Source: Natrinema caseinilyticum
GTDB lineage: Archaea > Halobacteriota > Halobacteria > Halobacteriales > Natrialbaceae
Reading direction: 5' to 3'
Length of the DNA: 64,000 nucleotides
Assembly (NCBI RefSeq): GCF_024227435.1
Contig: NZ_CP100446.1
Span: 372,001 to 436,000 of the forward strand
Positions 8,636 through 52,815 of this stretch are shown piece after piece. The stretch's first letter is position 1, and each line of letters opens with the position of its first letter. The notes under the pieces were generated by a model. It saw only the letters and a list, made by a program, of their open reading frames with translations, searched no databases and was not told the origin of the DNA. The position numbers and the translations under genes are program-made.

Positions 8636-8819
8636 GGATTCGTTCCTCGATCGGCGTCCGTGTCCAATTCGGTGTGGCTCCGTAAAATAGGTATCTGGTC
8701 ACGCGTCGCGGCCGTACGATCGTCGGACGGGTCGCTTCCTCGATCGTCCGATCGTGATCGTGTGCGGCCGATGCACTGACGCGGTTCGTTATTTACGGTC
8801 GCCCGACCAAGGGGCGACT

Positions 8820-10021
8820 GTGACGCATCACGGAGCGGAGGGGGCGGAAAACGAGTCCGGACGGATTCGAACGAATCCGGACCCGACCGATCCCTTCCGG
8901 AACGGGATCGATCGGCGGCGGGTACTGCAGTCGTCGGCGGCGATCGGAGCGACCGCCATCCTGTCGGGGTGTCTGTCGGACAGCGACGGAGGGCGGGCGC
9001 CGACGGTGTACGTCTTCAACACCGGTGATCGGACGCTGAGCATCATCGACGCCGCGACTGACGAACTGGTCGAGACCGTTCACATCGGAACGACCGCATC
9101 GTTCCCGGCCAATCAGTACGGCACCGGCGTCGATTCGGAGTACGAGACGCTCTGGCTCAACGTGTCCGGCGGCGTCAAAGCGCTCGATCAACACACGCTC
9201 GAGGAGGTCGCGGCGATCGAAACCGGTTTCGGACCGAACTATCCCAACGTGACTCCGGACGGAGCCCACTTGCTCGTCGCTGCCGGTGGAACGACGTCCC
9301 TGGAGCCCGATCCGGTCGATCCCGACGATCACCGCCTCGTTCGCATCGACGCCGATCGCGAGAGCGAGACGTTCGGCGAAGTCACCGGAGAGATCGCGGT
9401 CGGCTACAGCGAGCCGTGCGATATGACGCTCACACCCGACGGGGAATACGGCTTCGTCGCGGACATCACGAACGAGACGGTGACCGTCCTTCGCGTCGAT
9501 CCGTTCGAAATCGCCGCCCGGATCGACGTCGGCGGCAGCGCGATCGCGGGCGCGTGGGGTCCCGCGCGGGGAAAACGCTCGGACCGAGTGCTGATACCTA
9601 CGCGATCACCGCTCGAGACGCCGGCGACATCACGGGCGGGCTCAATACGGCGGACGCCGTACTCGAGATGGACGATGTAAAGGAGACGTTCGCCCGGTTC
9701 TTCAACCAGACGTTCAACAGGGGTCGACTCCAGCGTGTCGAACGCCCGCAGTCCCGCAACGAGGAGGCCCGGTACACGCTGGCCCGGTACACGCTTCCGT
9801 TACCGCCGGCGGCCGGCGGCGAACACGGTCAAGCGGCCGTCTACAACGCCGAAGTCGAGTACGACCCGCACGCCGACGAATGGGCCGTGACCGACGACCG
9901 CTTCGACACCGAGTGGTCGCTGTACCTCGCCAATCAAGACATCTGGATCGGACAGTGGGGCGGGGACTTCTACCAGGGCCGCGGTCGGCCCGGACGCTCC
10001 GATTCACCGCCGAGCGGGTGA
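8820..10021 (+). pseudogene. YVTN-type beta-propeller lipoprotein, disrupted
   Basis: The GTG at 8820 lies about 25 bases after a TATTTACG box and opens a protein with a Tat motif (RRRVLQSSAAIGATAILSGC). Propeller-type repeats follow: VYVFNTGDRTLSIIDAATDELVETV and YGFVADITNETVTVLRVDPFEIAARIDVGG. After residue about 245 the frame turns into arginine-rich nonsense and stops at 9680. A protein-like sequence continues in another frame from about 9560 to 10021 (DTYAITARDAGDITGG and WSLYLANQDIWIGQWGGDFY). Related propellers are usually longer, so I read this as a frameshift, perhaps with a deletion. Its tail was not recognised. Confidence 0.65.
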
Positions 10022-32226: not shown

Positions 32227-32830
32227 TTAGCGCAGCGCCGTTCGCAATCGACTCGAGAGATAATCACAGCCCACGACGAGGACGAATACGGCGCCGATCG
32301 CGGTCAGCAACTTCCGATACTGGAGCCGCTGTATCGTGATCGTGAGGTAATACCCGAGTCCGCCGGCACCGACGAATCCGAGTACGGTCGCCGCCCGGAT
32401 CGAACACTCCCATCGATACAGCGTGTACAACACCAGCGTCGGCGTGATCTGCGGGACCATTCCGTGGACGCTCCGTCGTCCCGTCCTTTTCGCCGACGGC
32501 GAACGCGTTGACGTCGGCGCGCTGACTCGCGACGACGTACGAGACGCCGCCGAAGTATGCGATGTCGACGTGCTCTCCGGTCGTCGCCTGGACCAGACCC
32601 GCGTAATCGGACGTCGTATCCAGATCGATTTCGGTCCCGAGTTCCTCCTCGAGGTGATTTGCGAGCGGAACGTTCCTGTCGATCGCCGTTTCCGGATCGA
32701 CGTCCGGAATGACGCCGACGGAGAGTTCCTCGCCGTCCGCACTTCCGAGACAGCCTGCCGTGAGACCGATAGACGCCCCGATCACGCCGAGAAACGAACG
32801 TCTGGTCGGCCCGCTTCGAACGTGCACCAT
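32227..32830 (-). pseudogene. phnD-phnE deletion chimera (phosphonate ABC transporter remnant)
   Basis: The leftward ATG 32830 starts a phosphonate-binding lipoprotein (RRSFLGVIGASIGLTAGC lipobox, then VGVIPDVDPETAIDRNVPLANHLEEELG and YFGGVSYVVASQ) that breaks off at about codon 118. From about 32475 down to 32227 another frame encodes the C terminus of a PhnE permease: GMVPQITPTLVLYTLYRWE and RAATVLGFVGAGGLGYYL. The end of phnD, all of phnC and the start of phnE are therefore missing. The promoter (TTTTATA about 20 bases upstream) is still present. It is a fossil of a deletion within a phnDCE-type operon. Confidence 0.85.
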
Positions 32831-33007: not shown

Positions 33008-33277
33008 GTGCACGTCGACGTCAGTGGAATGGTCTGCCCGCAGCCGGTGAGCATCGTCCGGCGCTGTCTCGAGGAACTCGAGCCGGGTGACGAACTCGTC
33101 GTCACCGGCGATTATCCGCCCGCTGAGCGGAGTATTTGCAGAACGTGCTACAAACACGGATACGCGGTGGCCGATGCCACCGCGACCGACTCCGAGGGGA
33201 CGGAGACGTTCTCCCTCCGGATCCGCGTCCCCGAACGGGCCACCCCATCAGCGGACGAGACCGTTCCGCGAAGCTGA
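33008..33277 (+). CDS. TusA/YedF-type sulfur (selenium) carrier protein, copy 1
   Basis: An 89-residue TusA-domain protein with GTG start: VDVSGMVCPQPVSIV carries the active cysteine (Cys10) in the CPxP motif. A subfamily feature shared with the copy at 51639 is GDYPPAERS, then ICRTCYKHGYAV. TusA-like proteins pass persulfide or perselenide sulfur/selenium through this cysteine. YedF in bacterial Se loci has the same domain. TATA-like TTATTA near 32981 fits a leaderless transcript. It is placed between a transporter fossil and the hydroxylase genes. Confidence 0.85.
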   Translation: MHVDVSGMVCPQPVSIVRRCLEELEPGDELVVTGDYPPAERSICRTCYKHGYAVADATATDSEGTETFSLRIRVPERATPSADETVPRS

Positions 33278-34431: not shown

Positions 34432-36885
34432 TTACGAATCGCGACGGTCGAGTGCCGCTTTGACGTCCGCCGCGGTGATCGGCAACGACGTCACGCGCAC
34501 CCCGACGGCGTCGCGGATGGCGTTGCTGAGTGCGGGCGGGATCCCGTTCGTCGGCAGTTCGCCGATGGATTTCGCGCCGAACGGACCCGTCGGTTCGTGC
34601 GTTTCCACGAGGATCGTCTCCATCGGCGGGTGGTCCGTCGTCCGCGGCATCCCGTACTGACGGAACCCGGTCGTCTGCGGGTTCCCCTCGTCGTCGAAAT
34701 CCAGTCCGCCGCTCGTCGCGTACTCGAGGCTCATGTGTTGGCCGCCCTCGACCTGTCCCTCCGCGAGCGGGGGGTTGATGGCGACTCCGCAGTCGGCCGC
34801 GTAGACCAGTTTGTTCAGTTCGAACTCGCCGGTCTCCTCGTCGACGGTCACGTCCACGAACTGCGCGCCGAACGGCGGCGGACTCTCGTCCGTCGAGTGG
34901 TGTCCGTCGCCCATGATCTGTTCGCGCTCGTCGTGGCCGTAGGTTGCCTCGTAGCCGATCTCCTCTAAGTCGACGCTCGCGCCCGTCTCCTCGCTGTAGA
35001 CTTCCCCGTCTCCGGTCTCGAGGTTCGATTCAGGCTCCTCTATGAGTTTCGCGCCCCAGTACAGCAGTCGATCTCTGGCGTCTTCGGCGGCCTTCTTGAC
35101 GGCGGTTCCGCTGATGTACGTCGTCGAGGAGGCGTAGGATCCGTAGTCGAACGGGGTGACGTCGGTATCCGAGGACTCGACGACGATGTCTGCGGGGCGA
35201 CAGCCAAGCACTTCGGCTGCGACCTGGCTGAACATCGTGTCGTTTCCGGTCCCGGTGTCGACGCCGCCGACGTGGAGGTGAAACGAGCCGTCCTCGTTCA
35301 TCTTGAGTTTCGCAGCGCCGAGTTCCTTGCCCGCGACGCCGCTTCCCTGTGCACAGATCGCCATCCCGACCCCGCGATGACGGTGGTCCTCGTCGGGTTG
35401 CTCGATATCGTCCCAGTCGATGGCCTCCATGCCCCGTTCGATACACTCTCGAAGGCCGCAGGAGCGGATTCGCCTGGCGAACCGATCGTCGTCTTTGAGG
35501 ATGGTCGAGACGTCGTCGAGGTCCCCCTCTCGGATCGCATTTCGCCGTTTGAACTCGACGGGATCGATCCCGAGGTCTCGCGCCACCTCGTCGACGTGCG
35601 ACTCGACGGCGAAGTGTCCCTGCGGTGCGCCGTAGCCGCGCATCGCAGCACCCATCGGAAGATTCGTGTGGACGACGTCGCCCTCGAACCGGATGTTCGG
35701 CACGCGCGGATACAGGGGTAGCGCCTTGGTCCCGACGTTCGTGGCCACCGTCATTCCGTGCGTGCCGTAGGCGCCGGAATTCGAGCGCGCGTAGAGGTCC
35801 ATCGCCACGATCGTTCCGTCTTCGGTCACCGCCGATCGCATCGTCATGTCCATCGGATGGCGCGACCGCAACGCGTAGAACTCCTCCTGTCTCGTCATCT
35901 CGAGTTTGACGGGCCGGTCGGCTTTCAGGTGCAGTGCGAACGCGATCGGTTCGATCGCCATCTCCTGTTTCGCGCCGAAGCCGGCGCCGACGCGCGGTTT
36001 CTCGACGCGAATATCCCGGATCGGAACGTCGAAGACGTGCGCGAGTTGCCGTCGCGTGTGGTTGGGCACCTGCGTCGCCGTGATGAAGGTATAGCGGTCG
36101 TCTTCGTCCGTGTAGGCGATCGTCGTGTGCGGCTCCGGGACGCAGTGGGACTGATACGGCGTGTCCAGGTCGGTCTCGTGAACGCGAACGTCGTCGCGCT
36201 CGAGTGCGGCGTCGACGTCGCCGATTTCGCCTTCGAAGTGCGACTCGAGGTTGCGGTCGTAGTCCGATCCGCTCTGTGCGTTCTCGACGTCGTCGTCATC
36301 GAACAGTTGCGGGGCCTCGGGTTCCATCGCCGCCTCGACGTCGAAGACGGCGTCGCGTTCCTCGTACTCGACTTCGATCGCGCGGGCGGCGCGATCGGCG
36401 ATCTCGCCTGTCTCGGCGGCCACGGCCGCGATCGGGTCGCCGACGAACCGCACGTGTCTCCGGAGGACCCGCATGTCCCACGGACTCGGCTCCGGGTAGG
36501 ACTGGCCCGAACTCGAGTACAGCGTCCCGGGAACGACGTCGTCCCAGGGCGTGACGACCGCGTACACGCCCTCCATCTCCTCGGCGGCGCTCGTGTCGAC
36601 GTTCGTCACGTCGCCGTGTGCGATATCGCTGCGGACGACCGTCCCGTGGACGAGGTCCGGAAATCGACGGCTGTAATCGGCCGTGTATCGGGCCTCGCCC
36701 GTCACGATCTTCCGCGCGTCGTCCTTCTCGACGTCCGTCGTGAGGTTCTCGCGTTCGTCCTCGCTCTTGCGATTGTTCTCCGGTTCGTCCCACTCCATCG
36801 GGGACCGCTCGGCATCCGCGCTTCGCTGACGGCTCTCCTCGGCCGTGCCCTCTTCGGGACGGTCTCGTTCGGTGGGCGTACTCAT
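34432..36885 (-). CDS. Xanthine-dehydrogenase-family molybdopterin-binding subunit, copy 1
   Basis: An 817-residue CoxL/XdhD-type subunit. It holds an N-terminal aldehyde oxidase/xanthine dehydrogenase a/b hammerhead segment (about 55-170), VGAGFGAKQEMAIEP, a DTGTGNDTMFSQVAAEVLGC Mo-cofactor contact region near 540, and AKSIGELPTNGIPPAL near the C terminus holding the conserved catalytic glutamate. It is co-transcribed with a 2Fe-2S subunit overlapping by four bases. No FAD-binding medium subunit is encoded in the pair or nearby, so electrons must leave by another route. Candidate substrates are purines (xanthine, hypoxanthine). Confidence 0.9.
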   Translation of the reverse strand: MSTPTERDRPEEGTAEESRQRSADAERSPMEWDEPENNRKSEDERENLTTDVEKDDARKIVTGEARYTADYSRRFPDLVHGTVVRSDIAHGDVTNVDTSAAEEMEGVYAVVTPWDDVVPGTLYSSSGQSYPEPSPWDMRVLRRHVRFVGDPIAAVAAETGEIADRAARAIEVEYEERDAVFDVEAAMEPEAPQLFDDDDVENAQSGSDYDRNLESHFEGEIGDVDAALERDDVRVHETDLDTPYQSHCVPEPHTTIAYTDEDDRYTFITATQVPNHTRRQLAHVFDVPIRDIRVEKPRVGAGFGAKQEMAIEPIAFALHLKADRPVKLEMTRQEEFYALRSRHPMDMTMRSAVTEDGTIVAMDLYARSNSGAYGTHGMTVATNVGTKALPLYPRVPNIRFEGDVVHTNLPMGAAMRGYGAPQGHFAVESHVDEVARDLGIDPVEFKRRNAIREGDLDDVSTILKDDDRFARRIRSCGLRECIERGMEAIDWDDIEQPDEDHRHRGVGMAICAQGSGVAGKELGAAKLKMNEDGSFHLHVGGVDTGTGNDTMFSQVAAEVLGCRPADIVVESSDTDVTPFDYGSYASSTTYISGTAVKKAAEDARDRLLYWGAKLIEEPESNLETGDGEVYSEETGASVDLEEIGYEATYGHDEREQIMGDGHHSTDESPPPFGAQFVDVTVDEETGEFELNKLVYAADCGVAINPPLAEGQVEGGQHMSLEYATSGGLDFDDEGNPQTTGFRQYGMPRTTDHPPMETILVETHEPTGPFGAKSIGELPTNGIPPALSNAIRDAVGVRVTSLPITAADVKAALDRRDS

Positions 36886-37448
36886 CGATCCGTCTCACCT
36901 CGCGAATCGCCCTCGAGTCGTTCATGGACGCGGTCACACGAGCGCCCGAACTCCGTACCACCGCGTCCCCCGTCCGCCGCGACCGTCCGTTCGTCCACGT
37001 TCTCCGCCGCCTCGAGGACCGCTTCGACGATTTTCTTGTACCCGGTGCACCGACACAGGTTGTCCGACAGCGCCTCTCTGACCTCCGCTTCGCTCGGTGA
37101 CGGGTTCTCCTCGAGCAGCGCCTTCGATCGCATGATCATGCCCGGGATACAGAACCCACACTGGAGCGCCGAGTTGTCGACGAAGGCTTGCTGTACCGGG
37201 TGAAGGTCGTCCTGTGTCCCGAGGCCCTCGATCGTTTCGACGGCCGCACCGTCGGCTTTCGCGACCGGCGTTATACACGACATCGTCGGTTCGCCGTCGA
37301 TCTGGACCGTACACATGCCACACGCGCCGGTGTCACAGCCGCGCTTGGCGCCGGTGTACCCGTTTCGACGTAACACGTCGAGCAGGAGGTCGGATTTCGA
37401 TGCCTCGAACGAGCGTTCGGTACCGTTGAGTGTACATTCGATGTGCAT
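36882..37448 (-). CDS. 2Fe-2S iron-sulfur subunit of molybdenum hydroxylase, copy 1
   Basis: A 188-residue CoxS/XdhC-type small subunit. The plant-type ferredoxin cluster motif is TGACGMCTVQIDG, the second cluster CGFCIPGM and CRCTGYKKIVEAV. The N-terminal HIECTLNGTERSFEA matches family start, so ATG 37448 was taken over an earlier one. Two 2Fe-2S clusters carry electrons from the Mo site. The stop overlaps the large subunit start (ATGA). This pair and the second pair (37736-40725) lie head-to-tail. Confidence 0.9.
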   Translation of the reverse strand: MHIECTLNGTERSFEASKSDLLLDVLRRNGYTGAKRGCDTGACGMCTVQIDGEPTMSCITPVAKADGAAVETIEGLGTQDDLHPVQQAFVDNSALQCGFCIPGMIMRSKALLEENPSPSEAEVREALSDNLCRCTGYKKIVEAVLEAAENVDERTVAADGGRGGTEFGRSCDRVHERLEGDSRGETDR

Positions 37449-37735
37449 ATGGCTCCCTCTATGGGTGATGCTACCACTATACCTCACACGTCACGTACGG
37501 GACCCTTAAGATTTGTCGAGGTTTCTGCTCTCTATCACTCTGTAAAAAAACATGTTCTGCGATCGCCCAATCACCGACGGTCGAACTGGACGGCAGGGGC
37601 GGTGAACGTCACGCAATCGAGAGAATCAAACGAAACGGTCGATCCGGCCGCGACCTCGAATGCGCGGATCGGGAGGGCAAAAACGAGAGCAGAAGCGGGA
37701 GAGGGCCGACCGAAGTGTCAGGTAAGGGACTCGGT

Positions 37736-40180
37736 TCACTCGTCGTCTTCGAGGGCGGCTCTGATCTTCTCCGGGGTGATCGGCATGTCGGTGATCCGAA
37801 CGCCGACCGCCTCGCGGACGGCGTTGCTCAGCGCCGGCGGCACCGTGTTCGTCGGCACCTCCGCGACGGATTTCGCGCCGAACGGACCGGTCGGCTCGTG
37901 GGTTTCGACCAGGATCGACTCGATCGGGGGCGTCTCCGACGCCGTCGGCCAGTCGTACTCGTCGAAGCTCGTCACCGCCGACCGGCCATCGTCGTCGAAC
38001 GTGATGCCCTCGCAGACCGCCATCTCGTAGCTCATGTGGTTCGCGCCTTCGACTTGCCCCTCCGCCATGCCGGGGTTAATGGCGACCCCGCAGTCGACCG
38101 CGACGACGAGTTTGTTGACCTCGAACTCGCCGGTTTCCTCGTCGACGGTGACGTCCGCGAACTGCGCGGCAAACGGCGGCGGACTCTCCTCCGTGCAGTG
38201 GGTCCCCTTTCCGAGGATGTGTTCGCGTTCGTCGTGGCCGTACGCGGCCTCGTAGCCGATCTCTTCGAGATCGACGCTCGCATCCGTCTCTTCGCTGTAG
38301 ACCTTGCCGTTTCCGGTCTCGAGGTTCGATTCGGGCTCCTCTATGAGTTTCGAGCCCCAGTAGAGGATGCGCTCTTTCGCGTCTTCGGCGGCCTTCTTGA
38401 CCGCCATGCCGCTGATGTACGTCGTCGAGGAGGCGTACGCCCCGTAGTCGAAGGGAGTGACGTCCGTGTCGGACGATTTGATCACGATGTCCGTTTCGGG
38501 ACAGCCCAGTACTTCGGCTGCGATCTGGATGAACGCCGTGTCCGCTCCGGTTCCGATGTCGACGCCGCCGACGTGGAGGTGAAACGAGCCGTCCTCGTTC
38601 ATCATGAGCTGGGCGGCGCCGAGTTCGTCGCCCGCGACGCCGGTTCCCTGCGCCGAGAGTGCCATCCCGATGCCGCGGTGAAGTTGTGCCTCGTCGGGTT
38701 GCTCGAGGTCGTCCCAGCCGATCGCCTCTTTCCCGCGTTCGATACATTCGTCGAGTCCACAGGATCGAATCCGGCGCTCTGCGCCTTCGCCGCCCATCAT
38801 GCCGGCGATCTCGTCGAGATCGCCGACCTCCATGTAGTGGTTCTGACGGAACTCGATGGGATCTATGTCGAGGTCGCGGGCCACCTCGTCCAGGTGTCCC
38901 TCGAGCGCGAGGGTGCCCTGCGGCGCGCCGTAGCCGCGCATCGCACCGGTCTGTGGAGTGTTCGTGTGGACGATGTCGGCTTTGAATCGCGCGTTCGGGA
39001 CCTTCGAGTACAGCGGCATCGGCTTGCTGCCGACGTTTCCGGCGACCGTCATCCCGTGGCTCCCGTACGCGCCCGTGTTCGAGAGCGCGTACAGATCGAG
39101 GGCTTCGATCGATCCGTCGTCGGTGACCGCGGTCCGCGCGCGGACTTTCATCGGGTGTCGCGACCGCATCGCGGAGAACTCCTCTTCGCGCGTGGCCTCG
39201 TAGATCACGGGTCGATCGGTCGCGAGCGAGAGCGCGAGCGGGATCGGCTCGACGACCATGGCCTGTTTGCCGCCGAAGCCGCCACCGACCCGCGGTTTCG
39301 AGACGCGGATGTCCCGAATGGGGATGTCGAACAGGTGAGCTAACTGCCGGCGCGTGTGGTTTGGCACCTGCGTACTCGTGACGAGAACGTGTCGGTCGTC
39401 CTCGTCGGTGTACGCGAGGGTGGTGTGTGTCTCGATCTGGGCGTGTGACTGTCGGATCGTCTCCCACTCGCTCTCGTGGACGTGGACGTCGTCGCGGTCG
39501 ACGGTCTCGTCGACGTCGCCGATCTCGCCTTCGATCTGGGACATCCGATTGCGGCTGTAATCGTGCCCGACGATTTCGTTCTCGACCTCGTCGTCGCCGA
39601 ACAACTGCGGTGCGTCCTCGGAGTAGGCGTCCTCGGGATCGAGCACGTACTCGTCTTCCTCGTACTCGACTGCGATGCGCTCGGCCGCGGCGCGTGCGGT
39701 TTCGGCGTCGTCAGCCGCGACCGCCGCGATGGGATCGCCGACGTAGCGGACGTGCTCGTTTAACACGTTCATGTCCCACGGACTCGGTTCGGGGTAGGAC
39801 TGGCCCGCACTGGTGTACTTCGCGTCGGGCGTCTCTTCGGACCACGGCGTCAGGACGGTGCGGACGCCGTCCATCTCCTCGGCGGCGCTCGTGTCGACGT
39901 CCGTCACGTAGCCGTGTGGTATCTCGCTCCGGACGACGGCGGCGTATGCGAGACCGGGGAACTGCGTCTCGTAATCCGCGGTGTACTTCGCCTGCCCGGT
40001 GACGAGTTTCGGGTCGTCGTCTTTCTCGGCCGGCCGCGAGACGCTGGCTCGCTCGTCCGGCGCCAGGTTGTTGTTCTCCGGTTCGTCCCACTCGAGGGGA
40101 TGGTCCTCGAGCGCCGCGACGTCCTGTTCTGTGTGCGATGCCGTCCCGCCATCGGGTTTTGGATCGTCTTCGGTAGTCAT
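37736..40180 (-). CDS. Xanthine-dehydrogenase-family molybdopterin-binding subunit, copy 2
   Basis: An 814-residue paralogue of the subunit at 34432-36885, alignable end to end: VVRSEIPHGYVTDVDTSAAEEMDG, VGGGFGGKQAMVVEP, DIGTGADTAFIQIAAEVLGC and AKSVAEVPTNTVPPAL with the catalytic glutamate. Differences at Mo-site positions (FGG versus FGA in the second motif, VAE versus IGE in the fourth) may change specificity. It also has a four-base overlap with its iron-sulfur partner and no FAD subunit. The two copies suggest related but distinct purine substrates, or alternative acceptors. Confidence 0.9.
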   Translation of the reverse strand: MTTEDDPKPDGGTASHTEQDVAALEDHPLEWDEPENNNLAPDERASVSRPAEKDDDPKLVTGQAKYTADYETQFPGLAYAAVVRSEIPHGYVTDVDTSAAEEMDGVRTVLTPWSEETPDAKYTSAGQSYPEPSPWDMNVLNEHVRYVGDPIAAVAADDAETARAAAERIAVEYEEDEYVLDPEDAYSEDAPQLFGDDEVENEIVGHDYSRNRMSQIEGEIGDVDETVDRDDVHVHESEWETIRQSHAQIETHTTLAYTDEDDRHVLVTSTQVPNHTRRQLAHLFDIPIRDIRVSKPRVGGGFGGKQAMVVEPIPLALSLATDRPVIYEATREEEFSAMRSRHPMKVRARTAVTDDGSIEALDLYALSNTGAYGSHGMTVAGNVGSKPMPLYSKVPNARFKADIVHTNTPQTGAMRGYGAPQGTLALEGHLDEVARDLDIDPIEFRQNHYMEVGDLDEIAGMMGGEGAERRIRSCGLDECIERGKEAIGWDDLEQPDEAQLHRGIGMALSAQGTGVAGDELGAAQLMMNEDGSFHLHVGGVDIGTGADTAFIQIAAEVLGCPETDIVIKSSDTDVTPFDYGAYASSTTYISGMAVKKAAEDAKERILYWGSKLIEEPESNLETGNGKVYSEETDASVDLEEIGYEAAYGHDEREHILGKGTHCTEESPPPFAAQFADVTVDEETGEFEVNKLVVAVDCGVAINPGMAEGQVEGANHMSYEMAVCEGITFDDDGRSAVTSFDEYDWPTASETPPIESILVETHEPTGPFGAKSVAEVPTNTVPPALSNAVREAVGVRITDMPITPEKIRAALEDDE

Positions 40181-40725
40181 GTGTCTCGCGTCTCACCGGG
40201 TCGGTCGGTCGCCTCGTGGGCGGTCGATTCGGACGGCGCGCCGCCGTCCGTCGCGACGGCTCCGTCGCCGTGTACGCGCTCTGCGGCGTCGAGGATCGCT
40301 TCGACGGGCTTCTGGTAGCCGGTACACCGACACAGATTGTCGTCGATCGCCTCCCGGACCTCCCCCTCGGTCGGGTTCGGGGTCTCCTCGAGCAGTTCCT
40401 TCGTCTGGACGATCATGCCCGGGATACAGAACCCACACTGGACCGCGAAGTGATCGACGAACGCCTGCTGAATCGGGTGCAGATCGTCCTGGCTCCCGAA
40501 GCCTTCGATCGTCCGGATGGTCGCGCCGTCGGCCTCCCGGACTGCTTTCCCGCAGGCCATCTCCGCGCTCCCTTCGATGAGCACTTTCGAAGCGCCACAG
40601 ACACCGCCGTCACAGCCGCATTTCACGCCGGTGTACCCTTCGCGTCGGAGTACCGATGCGAGGTCGTCGTCCGGCGCTGCTTCGATTTCGAGCGATTCGC
40701 CGTTGACGGTCAGGCTGAACTGCAC
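40177..40725 (-). CDS. 2Fe-2S iron-sulfur subunit of molybdenum hydroxylase, copy 2
   Basis: A 182-residue small subunit with two 2Fe-2S motifs: [17 protein letters not shown] and [11 protein letters not shown] with [12 protein letters not shown]. The GTG at 40725 follows AGGAGGGATCACT, a strong ribosome-binding site that overrides a much longer frame upstream. Its cysteine spacing ([11 protein letters not shown]) differs from copy 1 at one residue after the second cysteine, so the two pairs are distinct. The gene overlaps the large subunit by four bases. Confidence 0.9.
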
Positions 40726-40979: not shown

Positions 40980-41279
40980 ATGGAGATTGCACTCCTCGGC
41001 GGAACCGGAGATATCGGCGAAGGACTGGCGCTGCGATGGGCTCGTGACACGGATCACTCAGTCATCGTCGGCTCGAGAGACCCGGAGAAAGCGACGCGTC
41101 GAGCGAACGACTACGAGGCGCTCCTTTCGGAACGCGGTGCGGACGCAGACGTCGTCGGCGTCGGAAACGCCGAAGCCGCGGCGACCGCCGACGTCGTCGT
41201 CGAGAGCGTGACGCCGCTTCTGATCAACCTCGCGATGAACAACGACGGGATGCACGACCTGGGCGTTCGATTTCGGTGA
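40980..41279 (+). pseudogene. npdG (F420H2:NADP oxidoreductase) remnant with in-frame internal deletion
   Basis: A 99-residue product: residues 1-73 match the NADP-binding start of NADPH-dependent F420 reductase (IALLGGTGDIGEGLALRWARDTDH, then VGSRDPEKATRRA). The last 25 match its very end (VTPLLINLAMNNDGMHDLGVRFR). About 120 residues that should lie between them are absent, with the reading frame intact. The F420-binding part is lost, so activity is unlikely. It lies close to cofC and to a pdxS fossil. Confidence 0.85.
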
Positions 41280-41896: not shown

Positions 41897-42529
41897 TTAC
41901 GCGGTCATCTCGTCCGAGATTCTGACGGCGGTAACGCGTCCACTCTGCGAGTCGAGCCGAAAGCCCGCATCGCGAAGCCACGCGTCAGCCCGTCCCGATC
42001 CGTGAAGCAACACTTCGACGATATCCGCCGGCTCGTCGACGTCGACCCCGAGGCGGAACGAATCGACCGTCGCGACTGACGCGCCGACGGCCCGTGCAGC
42101 ATCGCGGTGATCGAGATACGACGACCCGTGATAGTCGACCCTGAAGTCGGGGTGCCGTATCGCGAGCGCGTTCGTTCCCCCGCCGAGTCCCGGCGCGATC
42201 ACGATATCGGCGGCGGGCTCGAGCAGTCGGTCGATCGCCTTACACGTCACGAGCGGGAGGTCGGCCAGGAGCACGCAGAGCGGCCCCGTCGTCTCCCGTC
42301 GATACGCGTTGACGGCCGGCGAAAGCGGCCGCTCGTCGACGCGGACGGACACTCCGTCCAGTTCGATTTCAGCGGTCGAGAGCACCAGCGGGGTCGCATC
42401 CGCGTTCCGCACCGCCCCGAGGACGTCTCGGAGCATCGCCTCCGCGAACGCTCGCCGCTCGTCGGCGGACAGGACGCCGCCGAGTCTCGTTTTCGGCTTC
42501 CGGGGATCGAACGGGATCAGCACGCGCAT
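41897..42529 (-). CDS. cofC: 2-phospho-L-lactate guanylyltransferase CofC
   Basis: A 210-residue nucleotidyltransferase of coenzyme F420 synthesis. [32 protein letters not shown] at the start, [28 protein letters not shown] and [15 protein letters not shown] are the CofC landmarks. It activates phospholactate (or phosphoenolpyruvate) with GTP. Its start overlaps the pdxS remnant by 13 bases. The normal haloarchaeal neighbour cofG is not in this window. Confidence 0.92.
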
Positions 42530-42846
42530 GCATACGTCTCTCGAGCCCCGCGTCTTACGTATTCGCAATCTGCTGACCCGGTGAACTCGTGCTCGTCGAT
42601 GTGGGAGGCGTCGTCGGCGGGGTCTGCCATCCGGGCGACGCCGCCGCGCTTTCTGATGTTCGCCGGGACGGCCTCGAGGGCCATGACGGCAACCGCGCCG
42701 GCGTCTTCGGCGATGCGCGCCTGTTCGGGGTCGACGACGTCCATGATGACGCCGCCTTTCTGCATCCGCGCGAACCCGCGCTTGACGAGTTCCGTTCCGC
42801 GTCGCAATCCCTCGAAATCGGCGTCTGCGTTTCTCGGCGTAGCCAT
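42517..42846 (-). pseudogene. pdxS remnant with internal deletion
   Basis: Residues 10-76 are unmistakably the start of PLP synthase lyase subunit PdxS ([24 protein letters not shown], then [28 protein letters not shown]). HIDEHEFT, which normally lies about 50 residues later, follows within five residues. After that the sequence no longer matches and runs into cofC. Full PdxS is about 300 residues, so the catalytic lysines and barrel are gone. Confidence 0.85.
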
Positions 42847-47841: not shown

Positions 47842-47965
47842 GTGGGCGCCGCCGGCGCAGTCTCGCGTCCCGTTCGGACGGACGCGAACTCCGATCGTCG
47901 TCCCGCCTGCCCCGAACGTTGTGGGATGCTAACTCTTATTATCGCAGTCGGCCAACGTCTCGGAT

Positions 47966-48337
47966 ATGATCCACGTGGGGTTTTTGCTCACCGGCGGCCC
48001 CTTCGACAGCGAACGGTGGCGGACCGCCTACGAACTCGGCCGGGCGGCGCTCGACGCCGGCCACGAGGTCACGTACTTTCACTATCTCGACGGCGCGTAC
48101 GTCCCGGTATCCGACCAGCACCTCCCCGACTGTTCGGACGCGGGGCTGTACGACGAGATGCCCACGGAGAAGTTCCAGGACCTGATCGACGACGGCGCGA
48201 CGGTCTTCTGTTGCGGTCTCTGCGTGAACGCACGCGGTATCGACGCCGAAACCGACTACCCCGACGGCGTCGAGGTCGGCTTGCTACCGGATCTGGCGGA
48301 TATCCTCGGGGAAGCCGACAGGGTGATCTCCCTGTGA
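47966..48337 (+). CDS. DsrE/TusD-like sulfur relay subunit
   Basis: A 123-residue DsrE-fold protein: VGFLLTGGPFDSERWRTAYELGRAALDAGHEVTYFHYLDG at the start, and ATVFCCGLCVNARGI with three cysteines (82, 83, 86); Cys86 corresponds to the active cysteine of TusD. The gene starts a four-gene coupled run (tusD-tusC-tusB-xdhC/yqeB) with overlaps of four bases or a two-base gap. The TATA-like TTATTA near 47936 is the likely promoter. It probably carries persulfide or perselenide. Confidence 0.82.
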   Translation: MIHVGFLLTGGPFDSERWRTAYELGRAALDAGHEVTYFHYLDGAYVPVSDQHLPDCSDAGLYDEMPTEKFQDLIDDGATVFCCGLCVNARGIDAETDYPDGVEVGLLPDLADILGEADRVISL

Positions 48338-48687
48338 AACGAGACGTCGTCGTCTTGCTCACCCGGGGCCCGTACGGGCGCGTTCACGTCCCCGAAGGAC
48401 TCCGGGCGGCCCGCGGGGTCGCGGCCGGTTTCGACCGGCACGACGTCTCGGTCGTGTTCACACAGGACGGAATCTACGCCGCTCGAGCGGCCGTCGACCG
48501 CGATGCGCTCAACATGACCGGCCACCTCGTCGATCTGGCCGAGGAGGACGGCGACCTGTTCGTCGACGGGGCGTCGATGGCGGCGCGAGACGTGACGCCC
48601 GACGAGATCGCGGCCGACGTCGGTGTCCGTTCCGGCGAGGAAATCGCGACGATGATCGAACGAGCGGATCACACCCTCGACTTTTGA
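48334..48687 (+). CDS. DsrF/TusC-like sulfur relay subunit
   Basis: A 117-residue protein with a GTG start overlapping the preceding stop (GTGA). VVVLLTRGPYGRVHVPEGLRAARGVAAGFDRHDVSVVFTQDGIYAA is the DsrF-like core, ending in SGEEIATMIERADHTLDF. It contains no cysteine, which is usual in the TusC role of structural partner for TusB and TusD. It belongs to the coupled group leading to the XdhC-YqeB gene. Confidence 0.82.
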   Translation: MKRDVVVLLTRGPYGRVHVPEGLRAARGVAAGFDRHDVSVVFTQDGIYAARAAVDRDALNMTGHLVDLAEEDGDLFVDGASMAARDVTPDEIAADVGVRSGEEIATMIERADHTLDF

Positions 48688-48689
48688 CA

Positions 48690-48935
48690 ATGTTGTACCT
48701 GATAGACAAACCGATGGCGGAAGTCGGATTGCGAACGGCGGCGAACGACGCCGACGGAATCGTCGTCCTGATCCAGGACGGCGTCCTGCTCGACCCGGAC
48801 CTCGACGCGCCGACGCTGGCGGTCGAACGGGACGTCGAAATGCGCGGTCTGTGCCTCCCCGAACGAATCGATACCGTCACGTACGACGAACTGATCTCGC
48901 TCATGGTCGATCACGAGGTGACGTCGTTCGTATGA
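48690..48935 (+). CDS. DsrH/TusB-like sulfur relay subunit
   Basis: An 81-residue protein; MLYLIDKP and GIVVLIQDGVLL are the TusB/DsrH hallmarks. Its single cysteine, Cys55 in RGLCLPERID, lies in the usual region for the DsrH active cysteine's neighbour rather than at the N-terminal part. Its stop overlaps the XdhC-YqeB ATG (ATGA). Three Tus subunits together suggest a TusBCD-like hexamer. Confidence 0.82.
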   Translation: MLYLIDKPMAEVGLRTAANDADGIVVLIQDGVLLDPDLDAPTLAVERDVEMRGLCLPERIDTVTYDELISLMVDHEVTSFV

Positions 48936-50509
48936 CGCTGTTCGATCGCGTGGACGACCTCGTCGCGCAGGGACGACCGGCCGCGATGCTGACGATCGTG
49001 GCCAAAGACGGCAGCGCGCCGCGGGACGTCGGGGCGAAAATGCTCGTGACCGACGACGACGAGTACGGGACGATCGGCGGCGGGACGGTCGAGGGACTGG
49101 CCGTCGAGGACGCCCGCGACGTCCTCCGCGGTGACGTGAATCCGGGCGTCCGGACGTACGAACTGCGCCCCGGTGGAAATACCGGCATGGTCTGTGGCGG
49201 TTCCATGGACGTCTTCATCGATCGGATCCGCGGCCGGGCGCGTCTCTACGTCGCGGGCGGCGGGCACATCGGCGTCGAACTCGCGGCGATGGCAACGCGA
49301 CTCGGCTACGACGTCACCGTCGTCGACGACCGCGAGGAGTACGCCGCTCCGGAGCGATTTTCCGCGGACGTCGACGTCGTTTGCGGCTCCTACGACGAGG
49401 TCCTCGCGGAACGTCCGATGACGTCGGAAACGGCGGTCGCCGTCGCGACGCGAAGCGGAACGTTCGACCGGCAGGCCGTCGCCGCCGCCCTCGACGGCGG
49501 CGCCGGCTACGTCGGCGTCGTCGCAAGCGTTGACAAGACGGCGCACATCTTCGACTCGTTGCTCGAGGACGGGTACTCGCGTCGAGACCTCGTTCGGGTC
49601 CGCGCGCCCGTCGGTCTCGACCTCGGCGGGGGCGGGCCCGCGGACGTCGCGCTCTCGATCCTCGCGGAGTTGCACCGCGATCGCCACGGTGCGACCGGCG
49701 AGCGCGCGAACCGACACGACGTCGAGGACCTCGTCGTCCTTCGGGGCGGCGGAGACCTCGGCAGCGGCGTGGCCTACCGCCTCCATCAGGCGGGCTTTCC
49801 GGTTATCGTGACCGAGACGGCCCGACCGACCGTCGTCCGACGCGCAGTCGCGTTCGGGACGGCGATGTACGACGGCGACGTCACCGTTCAGGGCGTGACG
49901 GGCCGTCGCGTTGCGGACGCGGACGAGGCGCTCGCCGTTCTCGCCGACGACGAGGTCCCGGTGCTCGAGGACCCCGACGGGACCGTCGTCGACGAACTGG
50001 AGCCCAGGGCCGTCGTCGATGCGATCATGGCCAAAGGAAAATTCGACACCGGAACGCGGCGAGACCTCGCAGACGTCGTCGTCGGCCTCGGTCCGGGGTT
50101 CGAGGCCGGCGAGAACGTGGACGCGGTCGTCGAAACCGATCGCGGACACGAACTCGGCCACGTCATTTACGACGGCGAACCCAGCCCGTACGACGGCGAA
50201 CCGGGCGAACGTCGCGGGTACACCCACGAACGCGTGCTCCGCGCACCGAGCGACGGCGTGTGGTCACCGTCGGTCGAAATCGGCGAGGCCGTCGAGGCGG
50301 AAACGACCGTCGGCTCCGTCGACGACGACCCCGTCGTCACGGAGATCGGGGGACTCGTCCGGGGGCTCGTTCACGACGGCGTTTCGGTTTCCGCCGGCGC
50401 GAAACTCGGCGACGTCGATCCCCGCGACGACGTCGACTACACGAAGATTTCGGACAAGGCGCTCTGTCTCGGCGGTGGCGTCCTGGAAGCGGTGCTCAAG
50501 CTCTCCTAG
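48932..50509 (+). CDS. XdhC-YqeB fusion: molybdenum hydroxylase maturation protein
   Basis: A 525-residue two-part protein. Residues 1-255 are XdhC: GSAPRDVGAKMLVTDDDEYGTIGGGTVEG and the NAD-type Rossmann LYVAGGGHIGVELAAMATRLGY. From about 266 a YqeB (EF2563-type) domain starts with VVLRGGGDLGSGVAYRLHQAGFPVIVTE and continues with TVVRRAVAFGTAMYDG, VVDAIMAKGKFDT, VVGLGPGFEAGENVDAVVET and RVLRAPSDGVW. In bacteria YqeB marks selenium-dependent molybdenum hydroxylases, and XdhC inserts sulfurated Mo cofactor. The fusion puts both in one chain, coupled by ATGA to the TusB-like gene. Confidence 0.88.
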   Translation: MTLFDRVDDLVAQGRPAAMLTIVAKDGSAPRDVGAKMLVTDDDEYGTIGGGTVEGLAVEDARDVLRGDVNPGVRTYELRPGGNTGMVCGGSMDVFIDRIRGRARLYVAGGGHIGVELAAMATRLGYDVTVVDDREEYAAPERFSADVDVVCGSYDEVLAERPMTSETAVAVATRSGTFDRQAVAAALDGGAGYVGVVASVDKTAHIFDSLLEDGYSRRDLVRVRAPVGLDLGGGGPADVALSILAELHRDRHGATGERANRHDVEDLVVLRGGGDLGSGVAYRLHQAGFPVIVTETARPTVVRRAVAFGTAMYDGDVTVQGVTGRRVADADEALAVLADDEVPVLEDPDGTVVDELEPRAVVDAIMAKGKFDTGTRRDLADVVVGLGPGFEAGENVDAVVETDRGHELGHVIYDGEPSPYDGEPGERRGYTHERVLRAPSDGVWSPSVEIGEAVEAETTVGSVDDDPVVTEIGGLVRGLVHDGVSVSAGAKLGDVDPRDDVDYTKISDKALCLGGGVLEAVLKLS

Positions 50510-50569: not shown

Positions 50570-51646
50570 TTAGCCCCGGATTCGTTCGACCGTCGGATCG
50601 ACCAGCGACGCGCCCGAGCTGGAGGTGACGCGGCCGACCTGGCGGTAGAAGACGTTCGCCGCCGAGAGGGCGGATTCGAACGCGTCGGTGCGTCCGTCCG
50701 GAACAGAGAGCAAGAGGCCACCGCTGGTCTCCGCGCTCTCGCCGTCCTCGAGACCGTAGCCGAAGAGCCGCGAGAGTTCGAGGGTGCCGTCGATGAGCGG
50801 AAGGTGCGTGAGTTCGACGCCGACGCCGGCGTTCTCCGCGAGGACGCGGGCCTGTCCGAGCAACCCGAAGCCGGTGATATCGGTCGCGGCCGTCGCGTAC
50901 TCGCGGGCCGCGAGCATCGCATCCCTGTTGGGCGTCGTCATCCACGCGAGCGCTTCGTCGGCGATGTCCTGGACGGGTCGCGCCGCCGTTTCGGCGATCG
51001 TGTCGCCGAACTCGCCGTCCCGCACGCGGAGTGCGCCCATCGCCGGTTGCGTTCCGAGGGGTTTCGTCAGATACAGCCGATCGGCCGCCGCGGCGCCGCT
51101 CGTTCGAAGAATGCGATCCGACGGTGCCGTGGCCACGACGGTGCCGCCGGCGATCGGCCACGGGTTCATGATGGTGTGCCCGCCCCCGACGACCCCGCCC
51201 ATTTCGTTCACCGCGTCGACGATCCCCCGCAGAACGTCCGTGGCTGCGCCCGTTACCTCCCGCGGAAGCCCGAGAACGACGAGGAACGTCAGATCGTCGC
51301 CGGCCCCGGTCGCGAAGGCGTCGCTGGCCGCATTACACGCGGCGACGCGGCCGAACTCGTACGGGTCGTCCACGATCGGCGTGAAGAAATCGATCGTCGA
51401 TACCAGACTGAGCCCGTCCGCGATCACGCGTGCGCTCGCATCCTCTCCGACGCCGACCTGCAGGTCCTCCTGCGCGCTCGATAATCCGACGTCCGCGAGC
51501 AACGAGTCGAGTTCGGCCTGTCCGACCTTGCACGAACAGCCGTGGAGTTCCGCGTATTCGGTCAGGGCAGGCGGCCGGTCGTCGCCGCCCTCGGCCACCC
51601 GGTCGTTTCCACCCTCGGCCGACCGATCGTCGCCGCCCTCAGTCAT
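50570..51646 (-). CDS. selD: SelD-like selenophosphate synthetase (orphan)
   Basis: A 358-residue ATP-dependent selenophosphate synthetase. The active motif ELHGCSCKVG (Cys37, Cys39, Lys40) matches the GCxCK of characterised SelD. GEDASARVIADGLSLVSTIDFFTPIVDDPYEFGRVAACNAASD carries the nucleotide and Mg ligands. The start overlaps the TusA stop by eight bases. Before the motif lies a threefold imperfect EGGDDR-type repeat. With no selA, selB or Sec gene visible, selenophosphate would serve another use, as in orphan-SelD organisms with Se-dependent Mo hydroxylases. Confidence 0.9.
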   Translation of the reverse strand: MTEGGDDRSAEGGNDRVAEGGDDRPPALTEYAELHGCSCKVGQAELDSLLADVGLSSAQEDLQVGVGEDASARVIADGLSLVSTIDFFTPIVDDPYEFGRVAACNAASDAFATGAGDDLTFLVVLGLPREVTGAATDVLRGIVDAVNEMGGVVGGGHTIMNPWPIAGGTVVATAPSDRILRTSGAAAADRLYLTKPLGTQPAMGALRVRDGEFGDTIAETAARPVQDIADEALAWMTTPNRDAMLAAREYATAATDITGFGLLGQARVLAENAGVGVELTHLPLIDGTLELSRLFGYGLEDGESAETSGGLLLSVPDGRTDAFESALSAANVFYRQVGRVTSSSGASLVDPTVERIRG

Positions 51647-51899
51647 CCGCATCCCCCGATGGGCTCGAGTCGCCTGGTGGACGGATAAGCAATTCGAAGC
51701 CGCCGTCGACGTCGTCGGGGACCGGTCGATCCTCGACTTCGTATCCGTGTTTCGTACACGTTCGTCGGAGATTCGACTCCGCTGGCGGGTAATCGCCTCG
51801 GACGAGCAGTTCGTCGCTCCGATCGAGTTCGGACAACCGCTCCCGGACGATGAGGGCGGGGCGCGGACACACTTCCCCCGTGACGTCCACACGTTCCAT
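51639..51899 (-). CDS. TusA/YedF-type sulfur (selenium) carrier protein, copy 2
   Basis: An 86-residue protein: VDVTGEVCPRPALIV holds Cys11 of CPxP, and GDYPPAESNLRRTCTKHGYEV is shared with the copy at 33008. In bacterial Se loci YedF has TusA followed by a DsrE domain; here TusA stands alone, and DsrE-type proteins are nearby in another operon. Gene order tusA then selD with an eight-base overlap implies coupled expression and supports a perselenide-carrier role. Confidence 0.87.
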   Translation of the reverse strand: MERVDVTGEVCPRPALIVRERLSELDRSDELLVRGDYPPAESNLRRTCTKHGYEVEDRPVPDDVDGGFELLIRPPGDSSPSGDADD

Positions 51900-52062
51900 A
51901 GGCTCTCTACCGAGTCCGTCCGAATAATTGTATCGCCGCAGCGGTCTGCGGGCCCGCCTCAGCCGTTTCTCGTGGACTCGCGTTGTGGGTCCTCGCTGCC
52001 CGCCTCGTCCGGCCTCCCGTTCGCGCCGTAACGCTCATGCCGTCGGCCAGTGAGTGATCGCT

Positions 52063-52815
52063 ATGGACCTCGCCGATGGGCTCGGACTCGAGGACGACGA
52101 ACTCGTCTCGTTCGTCGGCGCAGGGGGGAAAAAGACCGCCATGGGTCACCTGGTCGCCGAGGCGGCCGACCGCGGTCTCGATGCGGGATACACCACGTCG
52201 GTGCAGATGCCGCCGCCACCGGACGTTCCGCTCGCGCTCACCGACGGCGAGCGCCCTTCGGCCGACCTGGACGATGTGACGGCGCCGGTCGCGATTGCGA
52301 GGGCTCGCGTGTCCGATCCGGACCGGGTCGACGAGAAGGTGCGTGGATACGCGCCGGACGTGTTGAGTTCGGTCTTCGCGGGCGGCCGGTTCGACTGGCT
52401 CCTCGTCAAGGCCGACGGTGCGAGAATGCGCGAATTCAAAGCGCCGGGCGCCGACGAACCGCAAATCCCCACCGCGAGTACGGTCGTCGTCCCGGTCGTC
52501 TCCGTTCGGGCCATCGGCCAGCCGCTCACGGACGATATCGTTCACCGAGTCGACCGGATCGAACGGTGTACAGCCCTCTCCGCTGGCGAGCGGATCACCG
52601 CCGCCGCCGTCGGCCAGGTGCTCGCACACCCCGACGGGGGGCTGAAGAACGTTCCCGCGGACGCGACCGTCGTCCCGCTCGTGAACAAAGCCGACACGGC
52701 CACCCTCGAGCGGCGGGCGACGGACGCGCTTTCGACCGCGCTCGCGCGCACCTCGCGTTTCGATCGCGGACTCGTCACGTCCTTCGAGACCGACCGCCTC
52801 GTCGTCGTCAACTGA
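52063..52815 (+). CDS. yqeC: YqeC-like selenium-dependent hydroxylase accessory protein
   Basis: A 250-residue P-loop-type protein: LVSFVGAGGKKTAMGHLVAEA is the YqeC nucleotide loop, then FDWLLVKADGARMREFKAPGADEPQIP and VVPVVSVRAIGQPL, GLKNVPADATVVPLVNKAD and a C-terminal LARTSRFDRGLV. YqeC is the marker partner of YqeB and SelD in the Se-dependent Mo-hydroxylase trait; its exact reaction is not established. It is divergent from tusA-selD, sharing a 160-bp promoter region. ATG 52063 chosen over an upstream GTG. Confidence 0.87.
   Translation: MDLADGLGLEDDELVSFVGAGGKKTAMGHLVAEAADRGLDAGYTTSVQMPPPPDVPLALTDGERPSADLDDVTAPVAIARARVSDPDRVDEKVRGYAPDVLSSVFAGGRFDWLLVKADGARMREFKAPGADEPQIPTASTVVVPVVSVRAIGQPLTDDIVHRVDRIERCTALSAGERITAAAVGQVLAHPDGGLKNVPADATVVPLVNKADTATLERRATDALSTALARTSRFDRGLVTSFETDRLVVVN

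Follow-up and report, generated by a model that had tools for sequence, protein, structure and literature searches.

Among the uses of selenium, its insertion into molybdenum hydroxylases has been called the least understood, YqeB and YqeC being proteins without an established mechanism (PMC11448449). A 64,000-nt stretch of a haloarchaeal genome (the window), on a contig of 0.7 Mb, raises a question that bears directly on this step. Three small genes resembling those of the DsrEFH and TusBCD complexes, whose known members carry sulfur (PMC3397948, PMC13293266), run into a gene that fuses xdhC to yqeB. What would proteins of this kind do beside a maturation gene for selenium-dependent molybdenum enzymes? 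The initial annotation suggested a chalcogen relay, with TusA, to the molybdenum cofactor. This article considers the identity of the three proteins, their genomic setting and distribution, the cysteines available to them, and the role that these suggest.

Organization of the Coupled Gene Block

The features of the cluster are collected in Table 1. Coordinates and junctions proved to be as first described: dsrE and dsrF overlap by 4 nt, a gap of 2 nt separates dsrF from dsrH, and dsrH again overlaps xdhC-yqeB by 4 nt. An alternative in-frame TTG start for dsrH at 48684 would replace the gap with a 4-nt overlap with dsrF. The TATA-like element ahead of dsrE is a putative leaderless promoter of dsrE-F-H-xdhC-yqeB, and an A/T-rich element is similarly placed before dsrE in most of the 37 loci compared below. 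Estimates of dN/dS are approximately 0.08-0.17 for DsrE and DsrF and 0.2-0.6 for DsrH.

Table 1. Features of the cluster, in window coordinates
Feature	Position	Strand	Remarks
Mo hydroxylase 2, Mo-binding large subunit	34432..36885	-	likely client
Mo hydroxylase 2, [2Fe-2S] small subunit	36882..37487	-	likely client
Mo hydroxylase 1, Mo-binding large subunit, XdhA-like	37736..40180	-	likely client
Mo hydroxylase 1, [2Fe-2S] small subunit	40177..40722	-	likely client
TATA-like TTATTAT	47936..47942	+	predicted element, 24-30 nt 5' of dsrE start
dsrE-like (TusD/YchN-like) subunit	47966..48337	+	ATG, 123 aa; PF02635, 5e-20; YchN/DsrE by profile and fold
dsrF-like (TusC-like) subunit	48334..48687	+	GTG start, 117 aa; PF02635, 5.5e-13
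dsrH-like (TusB-like) subunit	48690..48935	+	ATG, 81 aa; TM0979 profile match, TusB fold match
xdhC-yqeB fusion (Mo-cofactor chaperone domain and selenium-dependent Mo-cofactor protein YqeB)	48932..50509	+	ATG, 525 aa; TIGR03309
selD, selenophosphate synthetase	50570..51640	-	NF010705, 311 bits; TIGR00476, 251 bits; invariant Cys35/Cys37
tusA-like carrier	51639..51899	-	CPRP motif (C11) and cluster-specific invariant C48; overlaps selD
yqeC, selenium cofactor biosynthesis protein	52054..52815	+	TIGR03172, 175 bits (cut-off 73)
second tusA-like gene, two-cysteine type	33008..33277	+	CPQP and RTCYKHGY; 15 kb from Dsr set

Identity of the Three Dsr-Like Subunits

The Pfam DsrE family (cut-off 22.7 bits) is matched by DsrE with 72 bits and by DsrF with 49 bits, and the third protein reaches 21.7 bits on Pfam DsrH, slightly below the cut-off of 24.4. 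The profile of this third protein matches Thermotoga TM0979 (1rhx, E 9e-8), and its predicted model (pLDDT 88) folds like TusB (2d1p_C, TM 0.78) and also matches the structure of DsrH. The DsrF profile finds DsrF of A. vinosum (2hy5_B, 1.6e-7), and the best matches of DsrE, by both profile and fold, are YchN (1jx7, over the full length) and DsrE (2hy5_A), its own model being of low confidence (pLDDT 67). The label "TusBCD-like" thus stands as a statement of remote homology; membership of TusB, TusC and TusD proper was ruled out, the three proteins scoring 19 (TusD), 34 (TusC) and 23 bits (TusB) against NCBIfam equivalog cut-offs of 89, 94 and 49. Judged by these scores, the trio is best regarded as a set of remote relatives of TusB/C/D.

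The customary roles of such proteins fit this genome poorly. For tRNA thiolation, the normal task of TusBCD, speak the fold and the subunit order, which match TusD-TusC-TusB, but a search of the genome returned neither TusE/DsrC nor MnmA and did return an NcsA-type enzyme, so that the Tus route is not available; dsrF of this type is moreover absent from approximately 360 of 391 haloarchaea, and the role is most improbable here. Much the same applies to sulfur oxidation or disproportionation, the usual service of DsrEFH types I and II to Dsr pathways: since DsrC is absent, the known DsrEFH-to-DsrC route is not available, the genes lie instead in a purine/Mo-hydroxylase/SelD cluster, and this role is likewise most improbable.

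The Selenium-Cofactor Setting

The joint presence of SelD, YqeB and YqeC marks the selenium-cofactor (SDMH) trait, and all three exceed their curated cut-offs here, the XdhC-YqeB protein with 344 bits on TIGR03309 (cut-off 220). The cluster is therefore of the selenium-cofactor type, which supports this part of the initial interpretation. Neither the selenouridine synthase SelU nor SepSecS was found in the genome by searches that were positive in control genomes, which leaves SelD without a visible use other than the cofactor; an orphan SelD of this kind is typical of archaeal SDMH cases. With these two absent, in addition to TusE/DsrC and MnmA, and with NcsA present, selenouridine and selenocysteine join Tus-type tRNA thiolation and Dsr sulfur oxidation as poor explanations for the locus.

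Other neighbors include an adenine deaminase, a RidA protein, SsnA-like and allantoate-hydrolase-like genes, and two nucleobase permeases, one of which exceeds a xanthine permease cut-off. The remnant of a phosphonate/selenate-type ABC transporter lies at 32227-32830 (-), where the N-terminal part of a PhnD-like binding protein precedes the PhnE C-terminus and the intervening portion is missing; the region downstream of the Haloarcula marismortui cluster has phnD and phnE flanking an ABC ATPase gene. F420 genes occur beside the Mo hydroxylase (41900-42846, -, and 40980-41276, +), namely cofC, which is intact, and npdG, which like an accompanying copy of pdxS is truncated; in some other genera, too, the surroundings of the cluster contain cofC-like matches, weak in the scan used.

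Distribution and Conservation Among Haloarchaea

A class-wide search covered 391 haloarchaeal genomes for YqeB and SelD over their cut-offs, a strong intact DsrF and the cluster-type TusA. The four genes occur in an identical set of 31 genomes from 9 genera and 5 families, and intact in no other. Haloarcula hispanica ATCC 33960 is among the carriers, its cluster lying on a 406-kb plasmid. Presence and absence follow one unit, within single genera as well. The Fisher probability of this co-occurrence, computed ignoring shared ancestry, is approximately 1e-46, a value that overstates independence given the relatedness of the genomes and the frequent location of the cluster on plasmids. Often found on megaplasmids, the cluster may travel as a block, so that the 31 genomes are not independent cases.

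Within these genomes, dsrF lies approximately 1400 nt 5' of the yqeB domain in every instance (31/31). Of the 37 loci compared, a few of which may represent one strain entered from two collections, 36 retain the coupled arrangement, with 4-nt overlaps at the dsrE-F and dsrH-xdhC junctions and a gap of 1-8 nt, nearly always 2, between dsrF and dsrH. The one exception is a MAG contig that carries dsrEFH elsewhere in the cluster. The gene order, whose lack of conservation in relatives would have spoken against the initial proposal, is thus maintained. While the Mo hydroxylase genes vary between genera in strand and distance, the dsrEFH-xdhC-yqeB block stays fixed, and in one locus (L098) selD and yqeC have drifted away with dsrEFH still overlapping xdhC. 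A scan with XdhC-YqeB as query, blind to the Dsr genes, returned seven loci, and in each of them the cluster includes the Dsr trio. In pairwise comparisons, the divergence of DsrEFH follows that of XdhC-YqeB (r = 0.96) and of SelD (r = 0.95).

The block also decays as one. Genome G073, in which no SelD above cut-off was found, retains a relic comprising a 3' fragment of dsrE and a frameshifted, internally deleted dsrF that runs into fragments of xdhC and yqeB. The relic occupies 8800-9400 of locus L102 (reverse-complement orientation), with a permease gene on one side and an npdG-like gene on the other. Perfect co-occurrence, conserved coupling and joint decay bear out the original assignment of the Dsr set to Mo-hydroxylase maturation, and its membership of the SDMH maturation pathway is well supported.

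Two weak dsrF matches elsewhere (26 bits each) were rejected: that in G176 lies on the strand opposite a solitary DsrE-like frame of CGTC type, and a repeated search of G287 was empty. Further afield in the phylum, DsrE genes with a CxxC motif were recorded in other genomes (L118-L137), probably mostly methanogens, many beside dsrF and dsrH matches and some with tusA; the role of these sets is apparently undescribed. Their existence implies that a DsrEFH-type complex is not confined to selenium use and that the fold is not selenium-specific.

Cysteines and the Cluster-Specific TusA

The motif C83-G-L-C86 of DsrE is invariant across the family and is the predicted chalcogen-carrying site. Both cysteines align with the YchN motif, and a possible correspondence to Cys78 of TusD was judged by eye only. 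DsrF and DsrH each have no conserved cysteine across the family; Cys55 of the DsrH in the window, considered as a carrier, was rejected on these grounds. A transfer from cysteine to cysteine through all three proteins, as originally imagined, is consequently unlikely. A DsrE that is the sole subunit with conserved cysteines fits the known complexes, in which it is specifically the DsrE subunit that carries sulfur, and DsrF would presumably be a scaffold subunit. In XdhC-YqeB, C88 is invariant and C512 is present in 37 of 38 sequences.

The TusA encoded in the cluster is a likely partner of the Dsr set, as had been suggested. It is a cluster-specific two-cysteine form in which C11 and C48 are both invariant: the second cysteine, C48, is missing in the three TusAs outside the cluster (chromosomal or other). 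Fifteen of the 31 genomes have a second copy of the cluster type, which in three cases contains an in-frame stop. In DsrEFH type II, the active cysteine of DsrE is charged by TusA in its persulfidated form (PMC13293266). On the largest contig, two more lone DsrE-family proteins are encoded (L003 and L004), the latter adjoining a TusA gene (L146).

These features bear on whether the cargo might be sulfur rather than selenium, the complex delivering sulfur to the Mo hydroxylase, for the Mo=S intermediate or the sulfido form, with selenium arriving by another route. Sulfuration of the Mo cofactor is served by proteins of the XdhC family, which, like the sulfur cargo of the known complexes, counts in favor of this role. 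However, across the class the set occurs exactly where SelD and YqeB do, and the TusA is the two-cysteine form restricted to the cluster, and a sulfur role is accordingly rather improbable.

A Proposed Route of Selenium to the Molybdenum Cofactor

Haloarchaea with the known selenium-molybdenum genes always have the Dsr trio overlapping the maturation gene, and this makes the trio a strong candidate, apparently not described before, for the carrier delivering selenium to the Mo enzyme. On balance, it is probable that the trio encodes a DsrEFH-like complex dedicated to placing selenium on the Mo cofactor of the selenium-dependent Mo hydroxylases of haloarchaea. From the company of SelD we infer that selenium is the cargo, and we likewise infer that the E, F and H subunits form a complex, which way the transfer runs and that the Mo cofactor accepts the cargo. 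In such a scheme, SelD would make selenophosphate, and the activated chalcogen would be taken up by C11 of the two-cysteine TusA and then by C83/C86 of DsrE, DsrF and DsrH providing scaffold and docking functions. From DsrE it would reach the Mo cofactor bound to XdhC-YqeB, a protein translated together with the Dsr set, and XdhC-YqeB would then load the hydroxylase.

The same proteins could instead act upstream. DsrEFH and TusA might work ahead of SelD, feeding or buffering the synthetase by binding selenium or by reducing it from perselenide to selenide; tusA overlaps selD here and adjoins it in the other loci, a CGLC pair is as well suited to reduction as to carriage, and the bacterial TusA-DsrE fusion YedF is linked to SelD generally (PMC5322559). 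Against this, dsrEFH is coupled to xdhC-yqeB, and not to selD-tusA, in 36 of the 37 loci, including the one from which selD has moved away. Such a supply-side function is therefore unlikely, though less so than a sulfur role, and delivery to the Mo cofactor is favored because of the coupling to xdhC-yqeB.

A more specific version of delivery can be offered tentatively, at a little under even chances: that a perselenide relay from the two-cysteine TusA via DsrE(CGLC)FH to XdhC-YqeB is the missing selenium-to-Mo step, that YedF is its fused counterpart, and that the haloarchaeal set constitutes a third functional class of DsrEFH, in addition to those of tRNA thiolation and sulfur oxidation. Whatever its detail, a conserved DsrEFH set overlapping xdhC-yqeB provides named proteins and named cysteines to test.

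Comparison With Known Systems

DsrEFH systems of types I and II (A. vinosum; cable bacteria) share with the haloarchaeal set three small syntenic genes in the order E-F-H, the same folds (DsrF being assigned by sequence only, DsrE and DsrH also by fold), a single cysteine site on DsrE and a TusA nearby. They differ in being surrounded by Dsr genes, whereas the present set lies in a SelD/YqeB/Mo hydroxylase cluster in a genome lacking DsrC, and its DsrE has a CxxC pair. The short DsrH, devoid of a conserved cysteine, contrasts with type I, in which DsrH has Cys20. In H. marismortui, no yeeE/yedE transporter, which type II has in synteny, is annotated within 12 kb, and no other Dsr-pathway genes were found in the 24-kb stretch around the cluster. 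TusBCD of E. coli resembles the set in its subunit order D-C-B, its folds (2d1p) and an essential cysteine on a single subunit, but equivalog scores fall far below cut-off, and the genome has neither of the TusBCD acceptors, TusE and MnmA.

The locus is of the type from which the SDMH trait was defined (Haft and Self 2008, PMC2276186; Zhang 2008, PMC2432076). Plasmid pNG700 of H. marismortui is a founding example, with SelD (pNG7239), YqeB (pNG7241) and a TusA-like protein (pNG7238), and the passages searched in these two reports list for that locus SelD, the TusA-like gene, YqeB, YqeC and the hydroxylases, leaving the three Dsr genes unnamed (PMC2276186, PMC2432076). On the plasmid itself, the trio lies directly 5' of yqeB, two of its members carrying the annotation "DsrE family protein" and the third "hypothetical protein". 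Text searches of a 2026 survey of DsrEFH types for selenium, molybdenum and Halobacteria had no hits, and a literature search on DsrEFH/TusBCD with selenium and on YqeB with DsrE, mostly of papers available without subscription, returned none that makes the present assignment, in keeping with the initial remark that no such assignment was known.

The closest functional parallel may be YedF (TIGR03527), which likewise brings TusA and DsrE modules together beside selD, yqeB and yqeC; in E. faecalis, yedF lies between selD and yqeC-yqeB. In the haloarchaeal locus, by contrast, the two modules are encoded by separate genes, dsrF and dsrH are present besides, and the score on TIGR03527 is 26 bits against a cut-off of 110. 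The DsrE domain of E. faecalis YedF has CGAC where haloarchaeal DsrE has CGLC, in a weak alignment (hhalign probability 14%); given the shared motif and the weak score, homology to YedF by profile was used as a lead only. Bacterial YqeB clusters exist without DsrEFH nearby, and archaea are reported to lack YedF (PMC5322559). The simplest reading would be that haloarchaea use a separate TusA and DsrEFH for the job that the fused YedF may perform in bacteria. If this is true, DsrEFH/TusBCD would be extended to a third kind of client, and a possible task would be suggested for the DsrE half of bacterial YedF.
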